Shown here piece after piece: positions 212 through 9,914 of a stretch of DNA of 64,000 nt (positions are counted from its first letter, which is position 1; each line of letters begins with the position of its first letter). Under the pieces are notes generated by a model. It worked only from the letters and a program-made list of their open reading frames with translations, was not told where the DNA came from and did not search any database. The stretch comes from Cyanobium usitatum str. Tous (GTDB lineage Bacteria; Cyanobacteriota; Cyanobacteriia; PCC-6307; Cyanobiaceae). The position numbers and the translations under genes are program-made. The DNA is taken from NCBI RefSeq assembly GCF_963920485.1, contig NZ_OY986431.1, forward strand, positions 620,001 through 684,000, given 5' to 3'.

Positions 212-1765
212 TCAAAACTGGAAGCTGGTTTTGATCAGGGCACCGAATTGGTTGGCCCCATCCCCATTCCCCCCAGGATTGTTGAGCACGAAGATCGCCG
301 GGGTCACGGAGATGGCATCGCTGACCTGCCACTGATACCACCACTCCCAAGCCCACACGCCGGATTCGCTGGCCGCCCCATTGCGGGTGGCGGTGGCAAA
401 GGCGGGTTGGCCCACTCCCATGCCAAAGCTGTTGCCCTCCGCCAGCACATCGCTCCATTGCAGGCCCACCATCCACGACTGGCTGGTGCGCAGGTCTGAG
501 CCGGAGCTGCCGTTGACGCCGTAACCAGCGCTGATCGAGGGGATCCAGCCGCTCTCGGCCGGCTGCCAGAAGCCGCTGATGCCAAAGGCATTGGTTTTGA
601 CGCCGTTCTCCTCGATCTCGGTGGTGATGAAGGGGGTGGCGCCGGGCACACCCACACCGGCCTCGACATAGGAATAGAGCGCGGCGATGCCCCAGTTCTC
701 CTGGCCGTAGCCCAGCTGCACGGTGCTGGTGCCGGCTGAGCTGCTGCTGAATAGGCCCTGGGAGGAATCGGCACCATTGCCTGCCACGTAGTTAGCGCTC
801 ACGCTCCAGCCGTTCTGTTGCCACCAGAGGCCCAGGCCTGGGCCGAGGTTTTTGTTGTAGGCCAGCGGTGCACCATTGAGGGTGAGCGCGTTGAGGATGG
901 TGTCGCCTGGATAGGCGCTGGGCCAGAGGGCGAGCATGTCTTCCTGGCCCACGCGGCCGCCGAGGGTGGCCGTGAACTGGCCACCGATCGGAGACTGCCC
1001 AAGCGGGAACTGATAAAAGATCTTGTCGATACCCACCACATCGGGGCCACCCTCTTCCTGGAAGGCGATCTCCAGGGTGGAGAGGCCGCCGCCGAAGGCA
1101 TTGCGATCGCCATCGAAGTTGCCGGCCCTCAGCACGGTGCGCAGCAGATCCTTGCCGCTGAAGCTGGTATCGAGGTTGAGCTGCAGGTCGTAGTTGAACG
1201 TGACCTGCTCACCGGCGGGATTGTTGCTCACCCCACCCACCACGAAGCTGGCCAGGCCGGAGAGCTTGGTGGTGGTGGAGAACTGCTGGGCTTCCAGCTT
1301 GCCCACCTTGTTCTCCAGGCCAGTGACGCGGCCGGTGAGGGCTGCGAGCTCAGTCTTGAACTCATCCATCAGGCGCTGCAGTTCGTCGGTCACTTCGGTG
1401 ACACGGTCGAGACAGGTGTTGAGCAGGGCAGCCGCCTCAAAGCGGGTCATGGCCTGGCCGCCTTTGTAGCTGCCGTTGGGGTAGCCGGCGACGCAGCCGT
1501 ATTTCTCCACCAGGTTGGTCAGCGCTTGATAAGCCCAGTCGGTGGGCTGAACGTCGGAAAACTGGGAGACGCTGGTGACTTGGTTCTTGGCTTCCCAAGC
1601 ACGGAAGCGATCAACGTCTTGCTGTTGCATGTAGTCGTTGATGGCGGCAGCGCCATTCAGCGACGAGATTTCATTGGCAGCTGCGGTGACCGGTGCCAGT
1701 ACTCCAGCAGCAGTTGCTGCAAGCAGCAGGGTTGGGCGAATTTTCAAGGCTGCGAAGCGTGGCAC
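212..1765 (-). CDS. SLH-domain OprB-type outer-membrane porin, probably zinc-regulated
   Basis: A 517-residue outer-membrane porin of the cyanobacterial SLH/OprB (SomA-like) family. It starts at a GTG with a signal peptide (residues 1-30, ending near TAAANE). An SLH domain spans about 65-120 (FSDVQPTDWAYQAL and MTRFEAAALLN are visible). A short coiled coil follows at about 125-165, then an OprB-like beta-barrel ending in the aromatic terminus TSFQF. SLH domains of this family bind the periplasmic cell-wall layer while the barrel forms the pore. A Zur-box-like palindrome lies 20 bases upstream of the start, and zinc-uptake genes flank it, so it probably admits zinc or a zinc complex. The substrate is inferred from context only; such porins are often labelled iron-uptake porins. 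Confidence 0.9.
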   Translation of the reverse strand: MPRFAALKIRPTLLLAATAAGVLAPVTAAANEISSLNGAAAINDYMQQQDVDRFRAWEAKNQVTSVSQFSDVQPTDWAYQALTNLVEKYGCVAGYPNGSYKGGQAMTRFEAAALLNTCLDRVTEVTDELQRLMDEFKTELAALTGRVTGLENKVGKLEAQQFSTTTKLSGLASFVVGGVSNNPAGEQVTFNYDLQLNLDTSFSGKDLLRTVLRAGNFDGDRNAFGGGLSTLEIAFQEEGGPDVVGIDKIFYQFPLGQSPIGGQFTATLGGRVGQEDMLALWPSAYPGDTILNALTLNGAPLAYNKNLGPGLGLWWQQNGWSVSANYVAGNGADSSQGLFSSSSAGTSTVQLGYGQENWGIAALYSYVEAGVGVPGATPFITTEIEENGVKTNAFGISGFWQPAESGWIPSISAGYGVNGSSGSDLRTSQSWMVGLQWSDVLAEGNSFGMGVGQPAFATATRNGAASESGVWAWEWWYQWQVSDAISVTPAIFVLNNPGGNGDGANQFGALIKTSFQF

Positions 1766-1821: not shown

Positions 1822-2865
1822 TCAGCGGATGGCCTGCCAGCGCTGGCTCAGGGCCTGCTGGCCGGATGGGTCGCAGCGACCGCCCAGGCCGTTGACGATC
1901 AGGCAGGTGTTGGCGGCGAGGGTGGCCACCAGGTTGCCGTTGCCATCGGGTTCCGCTGCCAGACCGTCGGCCACCAGTGGTGCGGCGGCGATGGGCACAC
2001 CGCTGAGGCTGCTGACCCGCTGCAGCGCTTTGCCTGCCGGCAGCTGTTCGGCGAACAGCATCGGCACCTGCTCGCGCCGCAATTGCTCCAGCACGGCCTG
2101 GAAGGCCTGGGGGCGCAGGTTGTCGCTGCTGCTGCTGGCATCCACCACCGCCAGTTCCTGCAGTCCGTAGGCCCGGGCCAGGCTGGCAAAAGCCCGGTGT
2201 CCGGTGGCCAGGGGCCTGGCGGTGGGAATGGTGGCAAGTTGCCGGCGGTTCCAGGCGTCCAGCTGCTGCAGAGTCGCCGTCATCGCCTGGGCCCGGGCGG
2301 CAATGGGGGCTTGGGCGGCAGGCTTTAGCTGCTGAAGTTGCTGGGCCACCAGCAGCACCAGAGCGGCCGCCTGGGTTGGGTCGTGCCACACGTGGGGATC
2401 CCGGTCGCCATGGGCATGCTCGTCCTCGTCATGGTTTTCCTCGCCATGGCCATCCTCGTCGTGGTGCTGGTGGGAATCGGCGGTCTTGGGCGGCCCGGCT
2501 TTTAGGACCGGGCTGTTTGGTACGGCCAGCTCGGCTACGGCCACGGTTTTGGTCTGGCTTGATCCCGGCTTGGTCAGTGCGGCTAGGGCTGGGGTGAGGC
2601 CGAAGCCGTTGATCAGAACTAGCTGGGCCTGGCTGAGCTCCCGGCTCTGCTGGGGCGTTAGCCGGAATTGATGGGGGTCGTCGCCCGGCTGCAAAAGGCA
2701 GCTCACCCGTAGGTCGCTGGCGGCTAGGCGTTGGGTGATGTCGCAAAGGACCCCGTCGGCGGCGATCACGTCGGCCGGTGGGGGAGTGCGGCAAGCCTGC
2801 AGTCCTACGGCTGCCGCTAATGCCAGGGCGAGAGAGGCAGCTGCGGGAGCGGGGATATGGGTCAT
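1822..2865 (-). CDS. znuA: Zinc ABC transporter substrate-binding lipoprotein ZnuA
   Basis: Periplasmic zinc-binding component of the ZnuABC importer (cluster A-I binding protein). The N-terminus is a lipoprotein signal with lipobox LQAC. A loop rich in His, Asp and Glu lies at about residues 115-147 (DSHQHHDEDGHGEENHDEDE, then DPHVWHDP), which is diagnostic of the zinc rather than the manganese branch. The conserved GHRAFASLARAYGL segment carries another metal-ligand histidine. I use the ATG at 2865; a GTG at 2874 is also possible. The gene is divergent from znuC, with a Zur-box-like palindrome 25 bases upstream. Length (347 aa) is normal for the family. Confidence 0.94.
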   Translation of the reverse strand: MTHIPAPAAASLALALAAAVGLQACRTPPPADVIAADGVLCDITQRLAASDLRVSCLLQPGDDPHQFRLTPQQSRELSQAQLVLINGFGLTPALAALTKPGSSQTKTVAVAELAVPNSPVLKAGPPKTADSHQHHDEDGHGEENHDEDEHAHGDRDPHVWHDPTQAAALVLLVAQQLQQLKPAAQAPIAARAQAMTATLQQLDAWNRRQLATIPTARPLATGHRAFASLARAYGLQELAVVDASSSSDNLRPQAFQAVLEQLRREQVPMLFAEQLPAGKALQRVSSLSGVPIAAAPLVADGLAAEPDGNGNLVATLAANTCLIVNGLGGRCDPSGQQALSQRWQAIR

Positions 2866-2889
2866 AACTGGCACGCCTGGTTCCGCGAA

Positions 2890-3068: not shown

Positions 3069-3764
3069 GTGTCGCTTGAGGTGAGTGAGCTGCGGGTGCG
3101 CCGCGGCGGCGAGCTGGCTCTCGACGGCGTGGCTTTTGCGCTCGAGCCCGGCACGCTCACCGCCTTGGTGGGCCCCAACGGTGCCGGCAAAAGCACCCTG
3201 CTGCAGGCCATTGAGGGTCAGCTGCCGATCGAGAGCGGTTCGATCCGGCTCGATGGGGTGCCCCTCACCTTGGCCTTGGCGCGACAGCAGTTGGCCCTGA
3301 TGCCCCAGCGGGGGGAGATCGCCTGGCACTTCCCTATCAGTGTGCGGGAGTTGGTGGCCCTGGGGCGGATGGCCGCCAAGCGTCCTGGCTGCTGCGATGT
3401 GGAAGCCGCCCTGCAGCGGGTTGGCCTGGCCGGGTTGGCGGGCCGGCGCCTGGATCAGTTGTCCGGTGGCCAGCAGCAGCGAGCCCTGCTGGCTCGCACC
3501 TTGGTGCAGCCAGCCAGGCTGCTGCTGCTGGATGAGCCCTGCGCTGCCATCGACCCCCCTTCACGCACCCAGCTGCTCAAGGTGATGGGCCAGCTGCGCG
3601 ATGCCGGTCTCACCCTGCTGGTGAGCAGCCACGACTGGGGCCGCGATCTCGACGCCTACGACCGGGTGCTGGTGCTCGATCGCTCCCTGCTCGCTGACGG
3701 CAGCCCCCAGCAGGTGCGCCAGGCCCTCGGCGACCTGCGGGTAGGCAATCACTGCTGCGGTTGA
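3069..3764 (+). CDS. znuC: Zinc ABC transporter ATP-binding protein ZnuC
   Basis: ATPase subunit of the ZnuABC zinc importer, 231 residues. Walker A GPNGAGKST is at 35-43. The signature LSGGQQQRALLAR, Walker B LLLLDEP and H-loop SSHD follow in the expected order. The start is a GTG at 3069, with no good ATG nearby. The gene is divergent from znuA and separated from its permease znuB by the zur gene on the opposite strand, so the three transporter subunits are not in one operon. Regulation from the shared znuA-znuC operator is likely. Confidence 0.93.
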   Translation: MSLEVSELRVRRGGELALDGVAFALEPGTLTALVGPNGAGKSTLLQAIEGQLPIESGSIRLDGVPLTLALARQQLALMPQRGEIAWHFPISVRELVALGRMAAKRPGCCDVEAALQRVGLAGLAGRRLDQLSGGQQQRALLARTLVQPARLLLLDEPCAAIDPPSRTQLLKVMGQLRDAGLTLLVSSHDWGRDLDAYDRVLVLDRSLLADGSPQQVRQALGDLRVGNHCCG

Positions 3765-3789: not shown

Positions 3790-4191
3790 CTAGCTGGCTT
3801 GGCGCTGTTGACAGCTTCCGCAGAGCCCGAAAAATTCCAGGGTGTGAAATAGCAGCTGGAAACCTGCACTCTGGTCGCCGTCTAGGTGCACGTCGTGCAT
3901 GGGGCAGTTATTAAGAACCACCGTGGCGCCGCAGTCGACACAGGTGAGATGGTGTTCGTCCCGCTCTGTGGGGGCGAACAGGGCTTCGCCGCTGGGCAGG
4001 TGGCGGCAACGGATCCAGCCCCGCTGCTGCAGCTGGCGCAGGTGGCGATAAACCGTGGCCAGCCCCATGGGCTGGGAGCCTTGGCGCAGCAGGGCGTGCA
4101 GGTCCTGGCCGGAGAGTTCCCGGTCGGCTTGGCGCAACGCCGTAAGCAGCAGCTGCTGGCGGTCGCTTGACGCGGCAACCTGGGAGGGCAT
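3790..4191 (-). CDS. zur: Fur-family zinc uptake regulator Zur
   Basis: A 133-residue Fur-family repressor. The winged-helix DNA-binding part covers about residues 10-65 (GLATVYRHLRQLQQRGWI is the recognition region). The dimerisation part carries HH at 80-81 and two structural zinc pairs, CVDC (84-87) and CGSC (124-127). The frame continues upstream over znuB, but the ATG at 4191 gives the normal Fur length and leaves a 34-base divergent gap to znuB. Its position inside a znuA/znuC/znuB cluster identifies it as Zur rather than Fur or PerR; with zinc bound it should repress the importer and porin through the two palindromes nearby. Confidence 0.9.
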   Translation of the reverse strand: MPSQVAASSDRQQLLLTALRQADRELSGQDLHALLRQGSQPMGLATVYRHLRQLQQRGWIRCRHLPSGEALFAPTERDEHHLTCVDCGATVVLNNCPMHDVHLDGDQSAGFQLLFHTLEFFGLCGSCQQRQAS

Positions 4192-4225: not shown

Positions 4226-5038
4226 ATGGAGACTCTTTGGTGGCTGCTGCCCCTGGTGCTGGCGCTGGTGATCGGCGGCCTCTGCCCATTGGCCGGCACC
4301 TTGCTGCTGGTGCAGCGGCGCCTGTTCCTGGCCAATCTGGTGTCGCACGCGGTGTTGCCGGGGTTGGCGCTGGCGCTGGCCCTGCGGCTTGATCCGGGCC
4401 TCGGTGGGGTGATCAGTGGCCTGGCTGGCGCCCTGTTGGCGGAGCGGCTCAGCCGCGGTGATCGTTCTGGTGAAGGGGGCGATGAGGCGGTGCTCAACAC
4501 CGTGCTGGCTGGCTTTCTCGGTTTAGGGGTGCTGTTGATCCCCCTGCTGCACATCCGGGTCGATCTGGAGGCGGTGCTGTTTGGCGATCTGCTGGCCGCC
4601 GCTCCTGCCGACCTGCTGCGCAGCCTGCTGGCCCTGGTGGCGGTGCTGCTGCTGCTCGCCTGGCGCTATCACCACTACGTGTATCTGGGGGTGGATCCCC
4701 TCGGCGCCGCCAGTGCTGGTTTGCCGGTGCAGCGGCTGCGGCTGCTGCTCACCCTGGTGACGGCCTTCACGGTGGTGAGCGCCATGACCGCCGTGGGGGT
4801 GGTACTGGTGATTGCCTTGATGGGTGCTCCGGCCCTAGTGGCCTTGGCTGGAGCCTCCAGCCTGCGCCAGGCCCTGGGGCGCTCGGCTCTGGTGGGTATG
4901 GGGATCAGCGGTGGCGGCTTTCTGCTGGCGATCCAGCCAGCTGTGAACCTGCCGCCCGGTCCCCTGATCGGGGTGCTGTGCATGGGCCTGCTGCCCCTGG
5001 CCTCCCTGCAGCACCGGCGCCTTTCAGCCGGCGGGTAG
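4226..5038 (+). CDS. znuB: Zinc ABC transporter permease ZnuB
   Basis: Inner-membrane permease of the ZnuABC system (ABC-3 family), 270 residues with about eight hydrophobic segments. The segment LCPLAGTLLLVQRRLFLANLVSHAVLPG and the VVLVIALMGAPAL stretch are typical of metal-type ABC-3 permeases. The gene starts 34 bases from the divergent zur gene, and its last 15 bases overlap the convergent gene on the minus strand. It pairs with ZnuC (cytoplasmic ATPase) and ZnuA (periplasmic receptor). Confidence 0.92.
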   Translation: METLWWLLPLVLALVIGGLCPLAGTLLLVQRRLFLANLVSHAVLPGLALALALRLDPGLGGVISGLAGALLAERLSRGDRSGEGGDEAVLNTVLAGFLGLGVLLIPLLHIRVDLEAVLFGDLLAAAPADLLRSLLALVAVLLLLAWRYHHYVYLGVDPLGAASAGLPVQRLRLLLTLVTAFTVVSAMTAVGVVLVIALMGAPALVALAGASSLRQALGRSALVGMGISGGGFLLAIQPAVNLPPGPLIGVLCMGLLPLASLQHRRLSAGG

Positions 5039-6343
5039 CCACAGGGCCAGGCGCACCGGCTTGGCCAGGGGTTGCAGGTTCAAGCTGCTGCCATCCACCA
5101 GCACCGGCTTGGCGTGGCTGCCTGAGCGCAGGGTGAGCAGCAGCTGCTGGCGGGTGGGATCAAACAACATCGGCGCTCCCGGCTCCACCTCCCAGCCCTT
5201 CAAGGAGCGTTGCTTGAGCAATTTGCCGCGGCGGTCGAGGGCCAGCATCAGGGGCTGGGATCCCTGGGACCAGTTGCTCACCACCAGCCAGACCCGATCC
5301 CCACCCCGGTCGCAGGCGCTGGCCAGGACGGCTTCGCTGCCGATCCAAAGCTGACGTGGCGGTTGGCCCGGCTCCACCAGCTCTAGGGAGCGCCGGTAGT
5401 CGGGCCAGTGACGCACCAGCAGGGCGCGGCCGCTCACGGGGCAGAAACTGCTGAGCTCCCGGCTGCCGGGCAGCAGCTGGCGCCGCTGGGGCTGGCCCGG
5501 CAGGTTGTGCAGGGTGAGGCCTTCCAGTTCAGGCACCACCACCCCGCCTCCCTCGGGGAGCAGCTGCATGGGGCCAGAAGCAGAGTGGGTCAGGGGCCAT
5601 TGGCGCCCCTGGGCGGAACGCACGCTGGTGCTGCCCGGATCCAGGGCGGTGGTGGACGATTGCACCAGCAGGTCGCCGCGTCGGTTGCTGCTCAGGTGGG
5701 CAAACAGCAGCGCTGCGTCGTCTAGGGGTTGAAGCCCACCCGCCACGGGTTCGGAGAGGCGCCGCGGTTCGCGCACCAGGTTGTGTTGCTGCAGCGGCAG
5801 CAGCCAGAGACGGTGGCTGCCCATGCCATCACCACTGAGCACGGCTACACCGGCACCGTTGCCGAGGGGCTGCACTTGGGCCAGCTGCGGCCACACCGGG
5901 GTCAGCGCCTGCCAGCTGCCATCACGCCGTTGCAGCTGCAGCTGTTCGCCGCCGGCTACGGGCACCACCGCCAGCAAGCGCGGCCGGGGGTCCCAGAGCC
6001 ACTGCTGGCGGCCCAGCGGCAGGTTGCGGCGGTCGACCCCTGCCAGCAGCAATCGCAATGGTCCGGGGATGGTTTGGCCGGGAAGCAGCAGCAGGCGCAG
6101 GGGGTTGTTTTCCCCCAGCCACGTCCAGGCCAGCTGGGGTTGCAGGCTGCTGGAGCCCACCAGGCTGGATCTGCGCATTGGTCGGCTGAAGCGCAGGTCC
6201 AGGGCCGCTGGACCGGAGCTGGCGCTGCTGGATTCCAGCTCCAGTAGCCGGGGTGGGCGCCGTAGCAGTAGTTGTTGCTGCAGTAAGGCCAGGGCCAGTC
6301 CTGCTGCCAGCACCAACGTGATCCGTTGCCCCGTGGCCTTCAT
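5024..6343 (-). CDS. Anchored or secreted protein with Ig-like and propeller-like regions, unknown function
   Basis: A 439-residue protein I cannot assign to a named family. An N-terminal hydrophobic segment (about 8-27) is a signal or membrane anchor. It is followed by an Ig-like region at about 45-115 with LDLRFSRPM, resembling bacterial BIG/SbsA-type domains. The rest has repeated short blades with W and L residues (for example RVWLVVSNWSQGSQPLMLALD), suggesting a TolB-like propeller. It is the last gene of a compact minus-strand operon; its ATG overlaps the stop of the TIGR03943 gene by 4 bases. Its 3' end overlaps znuB by 15 bases. A periplasmic partner role for the operon's permease is plausible but inferred. 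Confidence 0.72.
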   Translation of the reverse strand: MKATGQRITLVLAAGLALALLQQQLLLRRPPRLLELESSSASSGPAALDLRFSRPMRRSSLVGSSSLQPQLAWTWLGENNPLRLLLLPGQTIPGPLRLLLAGVDRRNLPLGRQQWLWDPRPRLLAVVPVAGGEQLQLQRRDGSWQALTPVWPQLAQVQPLGNGAGVAVLSGDGMGSHRLWLLPLQQHNLVREPRRLSEPVAGGLQPLDDAALLFAHLSSNRRGDLLVQSSTTALDPGSTSVRSAQGRQWPLTHSASGPMQLLPEGGGVVVPELEGLTLHNLPGQPQRRQLLPGSRELSSFCPVSGRALLVRHWPDYRRSLELVEPGQPPRQLWIGSEAVLASACDRGGDRVWLVVSNWSQGSQPLMLALDRRGKLLKQRSLKGWEVEPGAPMLFDPTRQQLLLTLRSGSHAKPVLVDGSSLNLQPLAKPVRLALWLPAG

Positions 6344-7041
6344 GGTTCCAGGGGCCGCTTGGGCCGGGCAATCGGTGTGATTCGCTGCGCTAACACCACG
6401 CTGCGGCTCTGGCCGTTGCGTTCCTCAATAGCCATGGTGCCCTCCACCGCCAGCCATTGATCCGCCCGGGGCGTCTGGCCGGCCGGCCAGCGCACAGGCA
6501 GGCCCACCGGGGTGGCATCGGCAAGGCAACAGCGCACCAGCAGCCTGGCTAGCTGGGGGGGCTCACCCGGCTGGGGCAAGACAAAGCCGCTGATCCGCAC
6601 AGGATCACCCGCGTAGAGGCTGGGGTCGGGTTGGCTGCGCAGCAAGCGCACCCAATCGGTGAGGCTGCGCTGGGCTGGCGGCAGCACGAAGCTCAGCTCA
6701 GTCTCATCGCCCAGCTCGGCAGGCCGGTTGGCGGCCAGGGTGCTGAAGGAGGGGTTGGGGGGAATAGCCAACACCAGCAAAGCCACTGCGGCGCTCAGCC
6801 ACCAGATTTTTGGGATGGCTTGGCGTCGGGCTGGGGCAGGGCTTTCCTGACCCCTTAGCGCTAGTTCAGCCAGCAGCAGGCCAGCCAGCAGCAGCAAGGC
6901 CACACCGCTCAGCGCCACCAGCGGGTGAAAAACGCCGCTGAGCAAGAGATCCAGTCTGCCGCTGAGGCTGCTTTGCAGCAGCACGGCTCCCCACAGTCCC
7001 AGGGCGAAGGCGCGCATCACAGCAGCAGCAAATTGACCCAT
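6340..7041 (-). CDS. TIGR03943/UPF0703 (YcgQ-like) membrane protein, permease partner
   Basis: A 233-residue protein with N-terminal transmembrane helices (about 10-55 and 78-97) and a soluble C-terminal domain containing PVRISGFVLP and VRCCLADATPVGLPV. This matches the two-part plan of the TIGR03943 family (YcgQ of Bacillus), which is encoded beside DUF318-type permeases. Here it overlaps the upstream permease by 25 bases and the downstream gene by 4 bases, so the three are probably translated as one unit. The paired cysteines CC at about residue 168 could bind metal. The biochemical role of this family is not settled; a metal-related role is inferred from the partner permease and the adjacent zinc genes. 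Confidence 0.85.
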   Translation of the reverse strand: MGQFAAAVMRAFALGLWGAVLLQSSLSGRLDLLLSGVFHPLVALSGVALLLLAGLLLAELALRGQESPAPARRQAIPKIWWLSAAVALLVLAIPPNPSFSTLAANRPAELGDETELSFVLPPAQRSLTDWVRLLRSQPDPSLYAGDPVRISGFVLPQPGEPPQLARLLVRCCLADATPVGLPVRWPAGQTPRADQWLAVEGTMAIEERNGQSRSVVLAQRITPIARPKRPLEP

Positions 7042-7979
7042 TGCCCCAGCACCAGCACGGCCACCGCTGCGGCGGCACTGGTGAGGGCGATGGCCTTGGG
7101 CTTAAACAGCACCCGGAACAGTCCCAGCAGCTTCAGGTCGACCACCGGGCCCAGCACCAAGAAGGCCAGCAGCGCTCCCGGGGTGACCTGGGCAGCGAAG
7201 CCCAGGGCTAGGAAGGCATCGACGCTGGAGCAAACCGAAACCACTACCGCCAGCAGCATCAGGCTCAGTACAGAGATGGTTGGTGCTCCCCCCACCGCCA
7301 GCAGCCAGCTGCGCGGCAGCAAGGTTTGCACCGTGGCGGCGATGGCACAACCCAGCACCAGCAGGGCGGCCAGATCGAGAAATTCGCGGCTGCCGTGTTG
7401 GAGCACCTCCTGCAAGGGCGGCCGCGCCACCTTGAGGGGCTGCGCCTTGGCGTCGATGGCACCGACAAGCCCGCTGCGACGCTCCAGCAGCCCCACCTGG
7501 GCCAAGGGCTGGCTCAGCCGCCGTTCTTCGAGCAGCACCGGATCTAGTAATTCGGCCTCGGGCAGCAGGCGCAGCACCGTGGCCAGCAGCACCGACAGCA
7601 GCAGGGCTGCTCCGGGGCGGGCCGCCAGTAGCCAGGGCTGGTTGGGGAAGGCGGCCCAGGTGCTGGCCAGCACGATTGGATTCAGCACCGGCGCGGCAAA
7701 CAAAAAACCCAGGGCCGTGCCAACTGGGGCGCCACCGGCTAGCAGCCGCCGCGCCACCGGCACATTGCCGCATTCACAAGCGGGCAGGGCAAAGCCAAGG
7801 GCGGCACCGGTGAGGGGCCCCAGCAGGGGGTGGCCGGGCAGCTGCCGCAGCCAGGCACCTCCAGGCGCCAGCCAGCGGGCCAGGCTGGCGATACCGACGC
7901 CAATCAGCAGGAAGGGCAGGGCTTCGAGCAGCAGACCCTGAAAAATCGCCCAGGCGGTGGCCAGCTGTGCCAAGAGCAA
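7017..7979 (-). CDS. DUF318/SO_0444-type permease, putative metal or oxyanion efflux
   Basis: A 320-residue integral membrane protein with two homologous helical halves. The first half holds the conserved loop LPACECGNVPVARRLLAGG (about 65-83) and the motif FAAPVLNPIVL. The second holds VVVSVCSSVDAFLALGFA and LVLGPVVDLK. These are hallmarks of the permease family that includes ArsP (arsenic) and the SO_0444 copper/zinc exporter; the CEC and CSS cysteines are candidate metal contacts. The start is a TTG at 7979 with no nearby ATG, 30 bases after the upstream small gene. It overlaps its TIGR03943 partner by 25 bases. The substrate is unknown; zinc or copper is suggested by context. Confidence 0.87.
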   Translation of the reverse strand: MLLAQLATAWAIFQGLLLEALPFLLIGVGIASLARWLAPGGAWLRQLPGHPLLGPLTGAALGFALPACECGNVPVARRLLAGGAPVGTALGFLFAAPVLNPIVLASTWAAFPNQPWLLAARPGAALLLSVLLATVLRLLPEAELLDPVLLEERRLSQPLAQVGLLERRSGLVGAIDAKAQPLKVARPPLQEVLQHGSREFLDLAALLVLGCAIAATVQTLLPRSWLLAVGGAPTISVLSLMLLAVVVSVCSSVDAFLALGFAAQVTPGALLAFLVLGPVVDLKLLGLFRVLFKPKAIALTSAAAAVAVLVLGQWVNLLLL

Positions 7980-8009
7980 CCCGCAGGGATGGCCATCATG
8001 GACGCTGAT

Positions 8010-8435
8010 TCAGGGCCTTTGGCTTTGAGCAGCCGGGGGTGGCTCGAGCTCGGGATGGGTGGCGCAGGGCATCCACAGGGAACCCATCGCATGGACGCCG
8101 TTGCAGCCCAGCTGTTTGGCTTTGATCAGGGCTTCCTGCTTGCTTGGGTAGGCGTAGAGGTTTGGGGTATGGGTCCCGCTGGCCGCATGGGGGTGCTGGT
8201 GGGGGGAGCTGGCTCCAGCGTTCCAGATGCCCATCACGTTGACGCCAGCCACCACGATGCCCATGCCCACCACGCAGATATTGATCACCCCCATGCCCAC
8301 GGCACCGAGGCTCAGCACGCCCATCGGCACCACCCCAATGCTCACGACCCCCATTGGCACGATGCCGATCGAGATGATGCCCAAGGGGGCGATGCCGATG
8401 GCCAGCAGCTTGGGTTTGTCGCCGCACTTGGCCAT
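8010..8435 (-). CDS. Glycine-pentapeptide repeat protein with C-terminal DUF3721-like Cys/His/Met motif
   Basis: A 141-residue protein with two distinct parts. Residues 13-72 are about twelve pentapeptides with small or hydrophobic residues and Gly at position 2 (IGIAP, LGIIS, IGIVP, MGVVS, and so on). This is a very regular hydrophobic repeat that could form a beta-solenoid or insert in a membrane. After a His-rich linker (HQHPH), residues 94-128 hold a DUF3721-like domain with the spacing C-x3-H-x-M-x4-M-x-C-x2-H, identical to the upstream protein. The ATG overlaps the upstream gene's stop in TAATG, so translation is coupled. Metal binding is inferred from residue content. Confidence 0.75.
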   Translation of the reverse strand: MAKCGDKPKLLAIGIAPLGIISIGIVPMGVVSIGVVPMGVLSLGAVGMGVINICVVGMGIVVAGVNVMGIWNAGASSPHQHPHAASGTHTPNLYAYPSKQEALIKAKQLGCNGVHAMGSLWMPCATHPELEPPPAAQSQRP

Positions 8436-8680
8436 TAGTGGGCCGGCGTATGGCTGCCATGGCCATCGCCATGCTGGAAGCAGGGCATCCATTTATCGCC
8501 CATCTGGTGCGCTCCGGTGCAGTGGAAGTGCTTGGCGGCTTTTTCGGCCGCGGCCTTGCTGGGATATAGCGCCTGAACCGCACCTCCACCTGGGCTGGTC
8601 TGGGCCAGGGCGGCAGCGGGCAGCATCAGGGCAGTAGTCAGTAGTTGGAGCAAGCGGCCCATCGGGCGGTGGCGGTTCAT
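8435..8680 (-). CDS. Small exported DUF3721-like protein with Cys/His/Met motif
   Basis: An 81-residue exported protein. The signal peptide ends near ALAQTS (residue 27). The mature part begins with ALYPSKAAAEKAAKHF and carries C54, H58, M60, M65, C67 and H70, then GDGHGSHTPAH with three more histidines. The motif C-x3-H-x-M-x4-M-x-C-x2-H recurs unchanged in the next gene. It appears to be a short DUF3721-type protein, a family I associate with picocyanobacteria. It is the first gene of the minus-strand operon reaching the permease and TIGR03943 genes. A periplasmic metal-binding role is an inference. Confidence 0.75.
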   Translation of the reverse strand: MNRHRPMGRLLQLLTTALMLPAAALAQTSPGGGAVQALYPSKAAAEKAAKHFHCTGAHQMGDKWMPCFQHGDGHGSHTPAH

Positions 8681-8734: not shown

Positions 8735-9199
8735 TCAGGGTTTGAACCACGCCGGCAGGGCTTCAAAACAGGCGGCATTTTTCTCGTTTTCCCTCGCCTC
8801 CACCTTCCAGCAGCAGCTGCGGCCGCTTTCGCGGCCGTGCAGCAGTTCGTTGGCCCAGCCCCACACCAGCTCGGCGCTGGCCTCCATGCCCACATTGGCC
8901 ATCACCCTCAGGTCGAGGGCGCCCTGATCGTGCAGTTGGCGCCAGGTCGAGAGGAGGGGGTCATCGGCATTGGCCAGAAAGGTGTGGTCGAATTGGTCTG
9001 CCAGCCGGGCTTCGAGCTGTTTCAGGCTGGAAAAATCCACCACAAAGCCACAGTCGTCGAGTTCATGGGCCCGAAACCAGAAACTAAAACTGCGGCTATA
9101 TCCATGCACGAAGCGGCAGTGGCCCTGGTGGCGCCATTGGCGATGGCAGCAGGGATAACCGCTGAAGGTTTTACTGCAGCTGTAGGCCGGAGTGGGCAT
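8735..9199 (-). CDS. 6-pyruvoyl-tetrahydropterin synthase / QueD-family protein
   Basis: A 154-residue PTPS-family enzyme. It contains the fold's metal-site region [20 protein letters not shown], the strand motif [10 protein letters not shown] and a C-terminal [14 protein letters not shown]. Family members convert dihydroneopterin triphosphate to 6-carboxy- or 6-pyruvoyl-tetrahydropterin, in queuosine or pterin synthesis. The usual HGH is HGY here, as in the variant subgroup with the ARENEKN ending, so the exact product is uncertain. The gene is divergent from hisIE and their start codons share one CATG at 9197-9200. Confidence 0.82.
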
Positions 9200-9914
9200 G
9201 GGTGAGGATCGGGACAGCAGCAGCGCAAGGGCCTTGTCAGCAGTATTTCAGCCCCTAGACCCTCAATTCATAGGGGCCTTGCGTTTCAACGAAGCTGGTT
9301 TGATCCCCGCGGTCGCCCAGGACTGGCTCGATGGCGCCGTGTTGATGGTGGCCTGGATGAACCAGCAGGCGATCGAGCGCACTCTCGCCAGCGGCGAGGT
9401 GCACTACTGGAGCCGCTCGCGCCAGGAGCTATGGCATAAGGGGGCCACCAGCGGCCATATCCAGCAGCTCAAGGGCCTGCGCTACGACTGCGACGCCGAC
9501 GTGCTGCTGCTCAGCATTGAGCAGAGCGGCGATGTGGCCTGCCACACCGGCGCCCGCAGCTGCTTCTACGACAACGGTCCCGAGCCCACGGCCGGGGGGC
9601 CATCGGCCGCTCAGCCGCCGGCAGATGTCTGCACCGAACTGATGCGGGTGATCGAAGGGCGCCGCGACCTGCCCGAGCCCGGCAGCTACACCAACAAACT
9701 GTTTGAGGGGGGCGACAACCGCATCCTCAAGAAGATCGGAGAGGAGAGCGCCGAATTCGTGATGGCCTGCAAGGACGACAACAGCGAGGAGATCGCCGCT
9801 GAAGCGGCCGATATCGTCTTCCACCTGCAGGTGGCGCTTGCTCACCACGGCGTCAGTTGGCGCCAGGTGCAGCAGGTGCTGGCCGCCCGCCGCGGCGCGC
9901 CCCGGCGGGACTGA
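9198..9914 (+). CDS. hisIE: Bifunctional phosphoribosyl-AMP cyclohydrolase / phosphoribosyl-ATP diphosphatase
   Basis: Catalyses steps 2 and 3 of histidine biosynthesis in one cytoplasmic polypeptide. The N-terminal HisI part shows [18 protein letters not shown] and the zinc-site cysteines in YDCDADVLL and [11 protein letters not shown]. The C-terminal HisE part begins near residue 140 and shows [15 protein letters not shown] and [14 protein letters not shown] take the ATG at 9198; a GTG at 9192 and a TTG further in are alternatives. The ATG shares its CATG with the divergent QueD-like gene, so both 5' ends overlap by a few bases. Length of about 238 aa fits HisIE. Confidence 0.93.

Follow-up and report, generated by a model that had tools for sequence, protein, structure and literature searches.

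An ArsP_1 permease trio and a DUF3721 gene pair in the zinc-homeostasis neighbourhood of Cyanobium usitatum: a possible auxiliary low-zinc route

In Gram-positive pathogens, the pair formed by an ArsP_1 permease and its TIGR03943 partner is conserved and needed for infection fitness, and has no known function (PMC5584981). The BAS1632 operon of Bacillus anthracis, ScfAB of Streptococcus pyogenes, SMU_746/747 of Streptococcus mutans and YcgR/YcgQ of Bacillus subtilis all combine such a permease with an adjacent TIGR03943/DUF1980-type partner, as does the locus described here, a run of five genes at 8680 down to 5024 on the minus strand of a 64,000-nucleotide stretch of the Cyanobium usitatum str. 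Tous genome (contig NZ_OY986431.1, positions 620,001 to 684,000; hereafter, the window). Unlike the window, the Bacillota loci that we examined have neither a propeller protein as third gene nor a DUF3721 pair. In gel shifts in vitro, B. anthracis Zur was demonstrated to bind the promoter of BAS1632, whose product, an ArsP_1 permease, resembles the two-component permease of S. mutans (PMC6336718). The closest described cyanobacterial system is the Zur regulon of Synechococcus WH8102 (znuABC, synw0968, 0972, 0973, bmtA and synw0360), which has the same znuA/znuC box as the window and, in marine Synechococcus relatives, the same zinc neighbourhood; no permease or TIGR03943 gene is named in its list of eight regulated genes.

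We found that the five genes make up two independently inherited modules: genes 1 and 2 (module A), which encode DUF3721 proteins, and genes 3 to 5 (module B), which encode the permease, its TIGR03943 partner and a beta-propeller protein. Our reading, held tentatively and with somewhat less than even confidence, is that both modules belong to a zinc-homeostasis neighbourhood, that the trio is an auxiliary low-zinc route for zinc or a zinc complex, and that the DUF3721 pair binds metal. In a distribution sample of 121 Cyanobiaceae genomes, DUF3721 occurred in 106, as against 60 each for TIGR03943 and gene 5. The latter two share 59 genomes, the exceptions being one broken or weak case on each side (G049 and G068), and genes 4 and 5 are adjacent in all but one genus, in which gene 5 lies on another contig. 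One locus (L191) has the gene arrangement of the window minus the trio. An earlier note on this DNA had proposed one five-gene module and named separation of the families in most genomes as evidence that would contradict it; the families were indeed apart in most genomes while genes 3 to 5 stayed together, which rules out a single five-gene system. Module B is old in cyanobacteria. TIGR03943 was detected in 170 of 195 cyanobacteria, being nearly universal outside the smallest genomes, and the trio is present in other cyanobacterial families, where the ArsP_1 and TIGR03943 genes are adjacent in 28 of 40 loci and gene 5 directly follows gene 4 in 17 of 40. DUF3721 was seen only in Cyanobiaceae, to which all 23 positive genomes of the 195 in the class-wide sample belong.

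The metal link suggested in the earlier note was supported, specifically for zinc, by the znu and zur neighbours of the trio and by Zur boxes in relatives. Of 40 Cyanobiaceae neighbourhoods, 36 have at least one of znuA, znuB, znuC and zur next to the trio; in a set of 80 named loci, which overlaps the former in species, znu or zur was beside the trio in 65 of the 69 long contigs. Downstream of the trio, these 80 loci showed zur on the same strand (25), znuB convergent (27), znuA convergent (7) or znuC on the same strand (4), and upstream znuA or zur divergent (5 each). Because the junctions vary so widely, the zinc linkage is not one frozen arrangement. In the window, gene 5 (5024-6343) and znuB (4226-5038, plus strand; PF00950) meet tail to tail with a 15-base overlap at 5024-5038. 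The contact with znuB noted earlier is therefore real, but the two converge, so that the operon and znuB are not co-transcribed. Then come zur of the Fur family (3790-4191, minus strand; PF01475), znuC (3069-3764, plus strand; profile match) and znuA (1822-2874, minus strand; PF01297).

Zur boxes were scanned for with a 7-1-7 consensus scored out of 14, and the scan recovers the known box between znuA and znuC (TGATAATGGTTCTCA, 2890-2904), at the site position reported for WH8102 (PMC9337993). Zur-type sites scoring at least 13/14 numbered 41 in 631 kilobases (kb) of Cyanobiaceae loci versus none in 697 kb from other families. In four genomes of one genus, a predicted Zur box (13/14) lies between divergent znuA and permease genes. 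In Cyanobium CH-040, Prado107 and C1_MAG_00004, a Zur-like site of 11-12/14, suggestive only as a Zur box, lies 75-105 bases upstream of the permease gene; znuA of C1_MAG_00004 is 0.9 kb from the permease and has a separate box of its own. Two or three lineages thus have a predicted Zur box immediately 5' of the permease, a place at which most Cyanobiaceae loci have none. Bacillota were compared through plasmid records rather than whole genomes. On Bacillaceae plasmids, the permease/TIGR03943 pair is found beside znuABC and zinT, cobW, or copper-type genes, and a Bacillus Zur-box match (11-13/14) lies upstream of the permease in all five records of the long type, which, being related, amount to perhaps two or three independent cases, and in none of the three short-type records. 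Since these boxes are common to, or near, genes induced by zinc shortage, they point to induction at low zinc and hence to uptake or sparing. The combination had been thought undescribed, which mostly holds for cyanobacteria, but not for B. anthracis, where an ArsP_1 permease operon was already known to be bound by Zur (PMC6336718). The parts are already known; in the literature searched, in which DUF3721 and TIGR03943 are not named, we found no description of a propeller combined with the permease in a zinc neighbourhood, and the ZepA paper mentions no permease. A permease/TIGR03943 pair of Nocardia farcinica, a single case that was not counted, has the best Zur-like palindrome of its region about 30 bases upstream (L306:5510-5524).

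Gene 3 (7017-7979, 320 residues, TTG start) encodes a permease of the ArsP_1/COG0701 superfamily that scores 194.9 bits against PF03773 (gathering cut-off 32.3). The residues C68-E-C70-G-N72, C250, E19, D254, D281 and K283 are invariant among 69 cyanobacterial sequences. The predicted TIGR03943 partner stood up as well: gene 4 (6340-7041, 233 residues) reaches 169.2 bits (curated cut-off 88.8), and its model, with a mean predicted local distance difference test score (pLDDT) of 90.0, consists of three membrane helices plus a five-stranded barrel, for which Foldseek gives weak pairings with OB-folds. This OB-fold keeps C171-C172..D175 invariant in 82 cyanobacterial sequences and would face the periplasm, by our own reading of the charge pattern rather than by computation. 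The two genes are arranged as a two-component pair, on the same strand with a 25-base overlap. Gene 5 (439 residues) has no family match by sequence. Its description as propeller-like was upheld by an AlphaFold model (pLDDT 94.7) built from 48 window and locus sequences, in which an N-terminal membrane helix (2-28) and an Ig-like domain (33-117) precede a propeller (122-439) with, counting strands, some seven blades. Among solved structures, TolB and S9-peptidase propellers match best, and the Pfam families hit by distant homologs are Big_5 and DPPIV_N. A search of PDB sequences with genes 3, 4 and 5 returned nothing useful.

From these features we infer that zinc is the substrate, that it moves inward, that metal is relayed, that the proteins form a complex and that DUF3721 binds metal. 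The trio would form a membrane complex of a secondary permease whose Cys-x-Cys site is conserved, an OB-fold partner and a propeller, the last being membrane-anchored in the periplasm as a scaffold or docking partner. The complex would carry zinc, or a complex of zinc, through the inner membrane alongside ZnuABC; the Cys-Cys pair of the OB-fold may pass metal to or from the Cys site of the permease, and the DUF3721 pair may bind metal in the periplasm or membrane through its Cys/His/Met motif and His-rich tail. A variant in which the cargo of the trio, whether exported or imported, is a small metal-binding molecule, such as a zincophore or a thiol, instead of the free ion would also suit the likely low-zinc regulation in some genomes and a propeller that could dock a ligand, and carriers of organic metal compounds are among the members of the permease family. 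We regard it as quite improbable, as no biosynthesis gene was found around the pair in distant cyanobacteria, where only the propeller and a promiscuous signalling family recur.

Several observations weigh against a low-zinc zinc route. In the window itself, the operon lacks a Zur box upstream of 8680, the only Zur-type sites at promoters of the region being those at 2890 and 1787, and relatives have none upstream of the 6-pyruvoyl tetrahydropterin synthase (PTPS) or DUF3721 genes. Prochlorococcus-type genomes handle zinc without the trio. In the WH8102 zur mutant, only eight genes changed, namely synw0968-0973, bmtA and synw0360, and genes beyond synw0973 were not reported (PMC9337993). The synw0973 gene may be the propeller gene, a guess from synteny with relatives, as WH8102 lies outside the loci compared; its change could be explained by read-through, as the propeller gene is convergent with the znuA transcript. 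Named relatives of the ArsP_1 superfamily are annotated as efflux proteins, and the B. anthracis authors inferred activation rather than repression from the position of the box (PMC6336718). Both of these last points, as well as the P-type ATPase, CopC and HMA genes that adjoin some related pairs on Priestia plasmids, speak for export, with the trio as an efflux pump of zinc, copper or a soft metal. It would serve as a safety valve while the zinc-uptake genes are switched on, or against other metals that come in through them. We graded this as a serious rival, albeit an unlikely one. Export had been suggested earlier on the strength of the name SO_0444, the Cu/Zn efflux transporter whose ArsP_1 superfamily gene 3 shares and with which it can be aligned over most of its length. 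The "SO_0444-type" label holds at that superfamily level but fails at the equivalog level, which is ruled out for gene 3 at 64.5 bits against the cut-off of 300 of NF033936 (a canonical cyanobacterial homolog scores 97), and the match to SaoE is 50.3 bits, with a cut-off of 325. Gene 3 likewise has Pfam ArsP_1 membership in common with the ArsP methylarsenite permease, from which it differs in having TIGR03943 and propeller partners. The window locus, in contrast to SO_0444, favours low-zinc control, and the Zur boxes in relatives and Bacillaceae, shared with znuA or lying beside znuABC, zinT and cobW, genes normally induced by zinc shortage, point to the low-zinc side. Our data therefore favour low-zinc transport within the Zur network over metal export.

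The lack of zinc genes beside the trio in other cyanobacterial families, where they were found in at most 1 of 40 loci, is a further point against that preferred reading, and rules out a zinc linkage of the trio across all cyanobacteria. Because the trio is old and zinc-linked only in Cyanobiaceae, the link either belongs to that family or was lost elsewhere. The absence of metal neighbours or a Zur box at the trio in those families would suit a general envelope or redox role unrelated to metal, for which the zinc placement in Cyanobiaceae is merely conserved synteny; the streptococcal and Bacillus homologs ScfAB and YcgRQ are also tied to acid and envelope stress (PMC5584981). The many different junctions with four different zinc genes, the Zur-box matches in two phyla and the published Zur binding (PMC6336718) argue in the opposite direction, and we consider such a role rather improbable.

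If low-zinc transport applies, the trio would extend the set of zinc-handling components of picocyanobacteria, a group in which zinc physiology is important in waters poor in nutrients, and a zinc link in two phyla makes the function of ScfAB/YcgRQ-type permeases testable. A bolder and, in our view, doubtful extension is that the ArsP_1 and TIGR03943 pair is an ancient Zur-controlled transporter of zinc or a zinc complex in cyanobacteria and Bacillota, with the propeller as a cyanobacterial subunit and a thiol relay from the Cys-Cys of the OB-fold to the Cys-x-Cys of the permease. Bacteria would then have another kind of zinc uptake route in addition to ZnuABC and ZIP proteins.

The two small Cys/His/Met proteins of module A do share a motif, C-x-G-A/V-H-x-M-G-x-x-W-M-P-C, and both are members of DUF3721 (PF12518, cut-off 27 bits), the only ones in the genome; we know of no function for this family. 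Gene 1 (8435-8680; 54.7 bits) encodes a secreted protein of 81 residues with a signal peptide and a tail containing His; in many orthologs of the Prochlorococcus type, the signal peptide is followed by a lipoprotein-like Cys, and the tails are rich in His. Gene 2 (8010-8435, 141 residues; 60.7 bits) carries GLTT-type hydrophobic repeats (PF01744, 50.7 bits) ahead of a C-terminal DUF3721 domain. GLTT-repeat proteins with a His-rich tail and no DUF3721 lie near the zinc locus elsewhere (L104:5148-5594, L109:8232-8588 and L116:9934-10350), and the two domains are thus separable. The usual form of DUF3721 is a two-gene pair without the trio, sometimes beside znu/zur genes or a porin (near znu in 4 of 20 sampled loci), and the pair may have, on this weaker evidence, a zinc link of its own that is independent of the trio. 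In four loci (L186, L187, L192 and L193), a regulator of the Fur family, other than Zur, is encoded convergently with the pair.

Re-reading of the DNA confirmed the five genes on a single strand with the junctions described earlier: TAATG at 8437-8433 between genes 1 and 2, a 30-base gap between genes 2 and 3, the overlap between genes 3 and 4, and ATGA between genes 4 and 5. A scan for sigma-70 promoters found none. The PTPS gene (8735-9199, minus strand; PF01242) lies 54 bases upstream of gene 1 on the same strand and may share its transcript with the operon. In 37 of 80 related loci, PTPS stands immediately 5' of the permease and on its strand; in the window, the PTPS start codon overlaps head to head with that of hisIE (9192-9914). 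In Synechococcus sp. CS-1331 (L266), two znuABC sets are present, one flanking the trio on each side. Directly after znuA, marine Synechococcus encode a secreted, extremely His/Asp-rich protein without a family match (L300:8824-9942, L095:4771-5913 and L298:4921-6024), possibly the equivalent of synw0972. At 1787-1801, a near-perfect Zur-type palindrome lies 21 bases upstream of a porin gene (212-1765, minus strand) beside znuA, and where related loci include an ortholog of this porin, a similar box precedes it in most cases, which suggests that this outer-membrane porin is a candidate for control by Zur.
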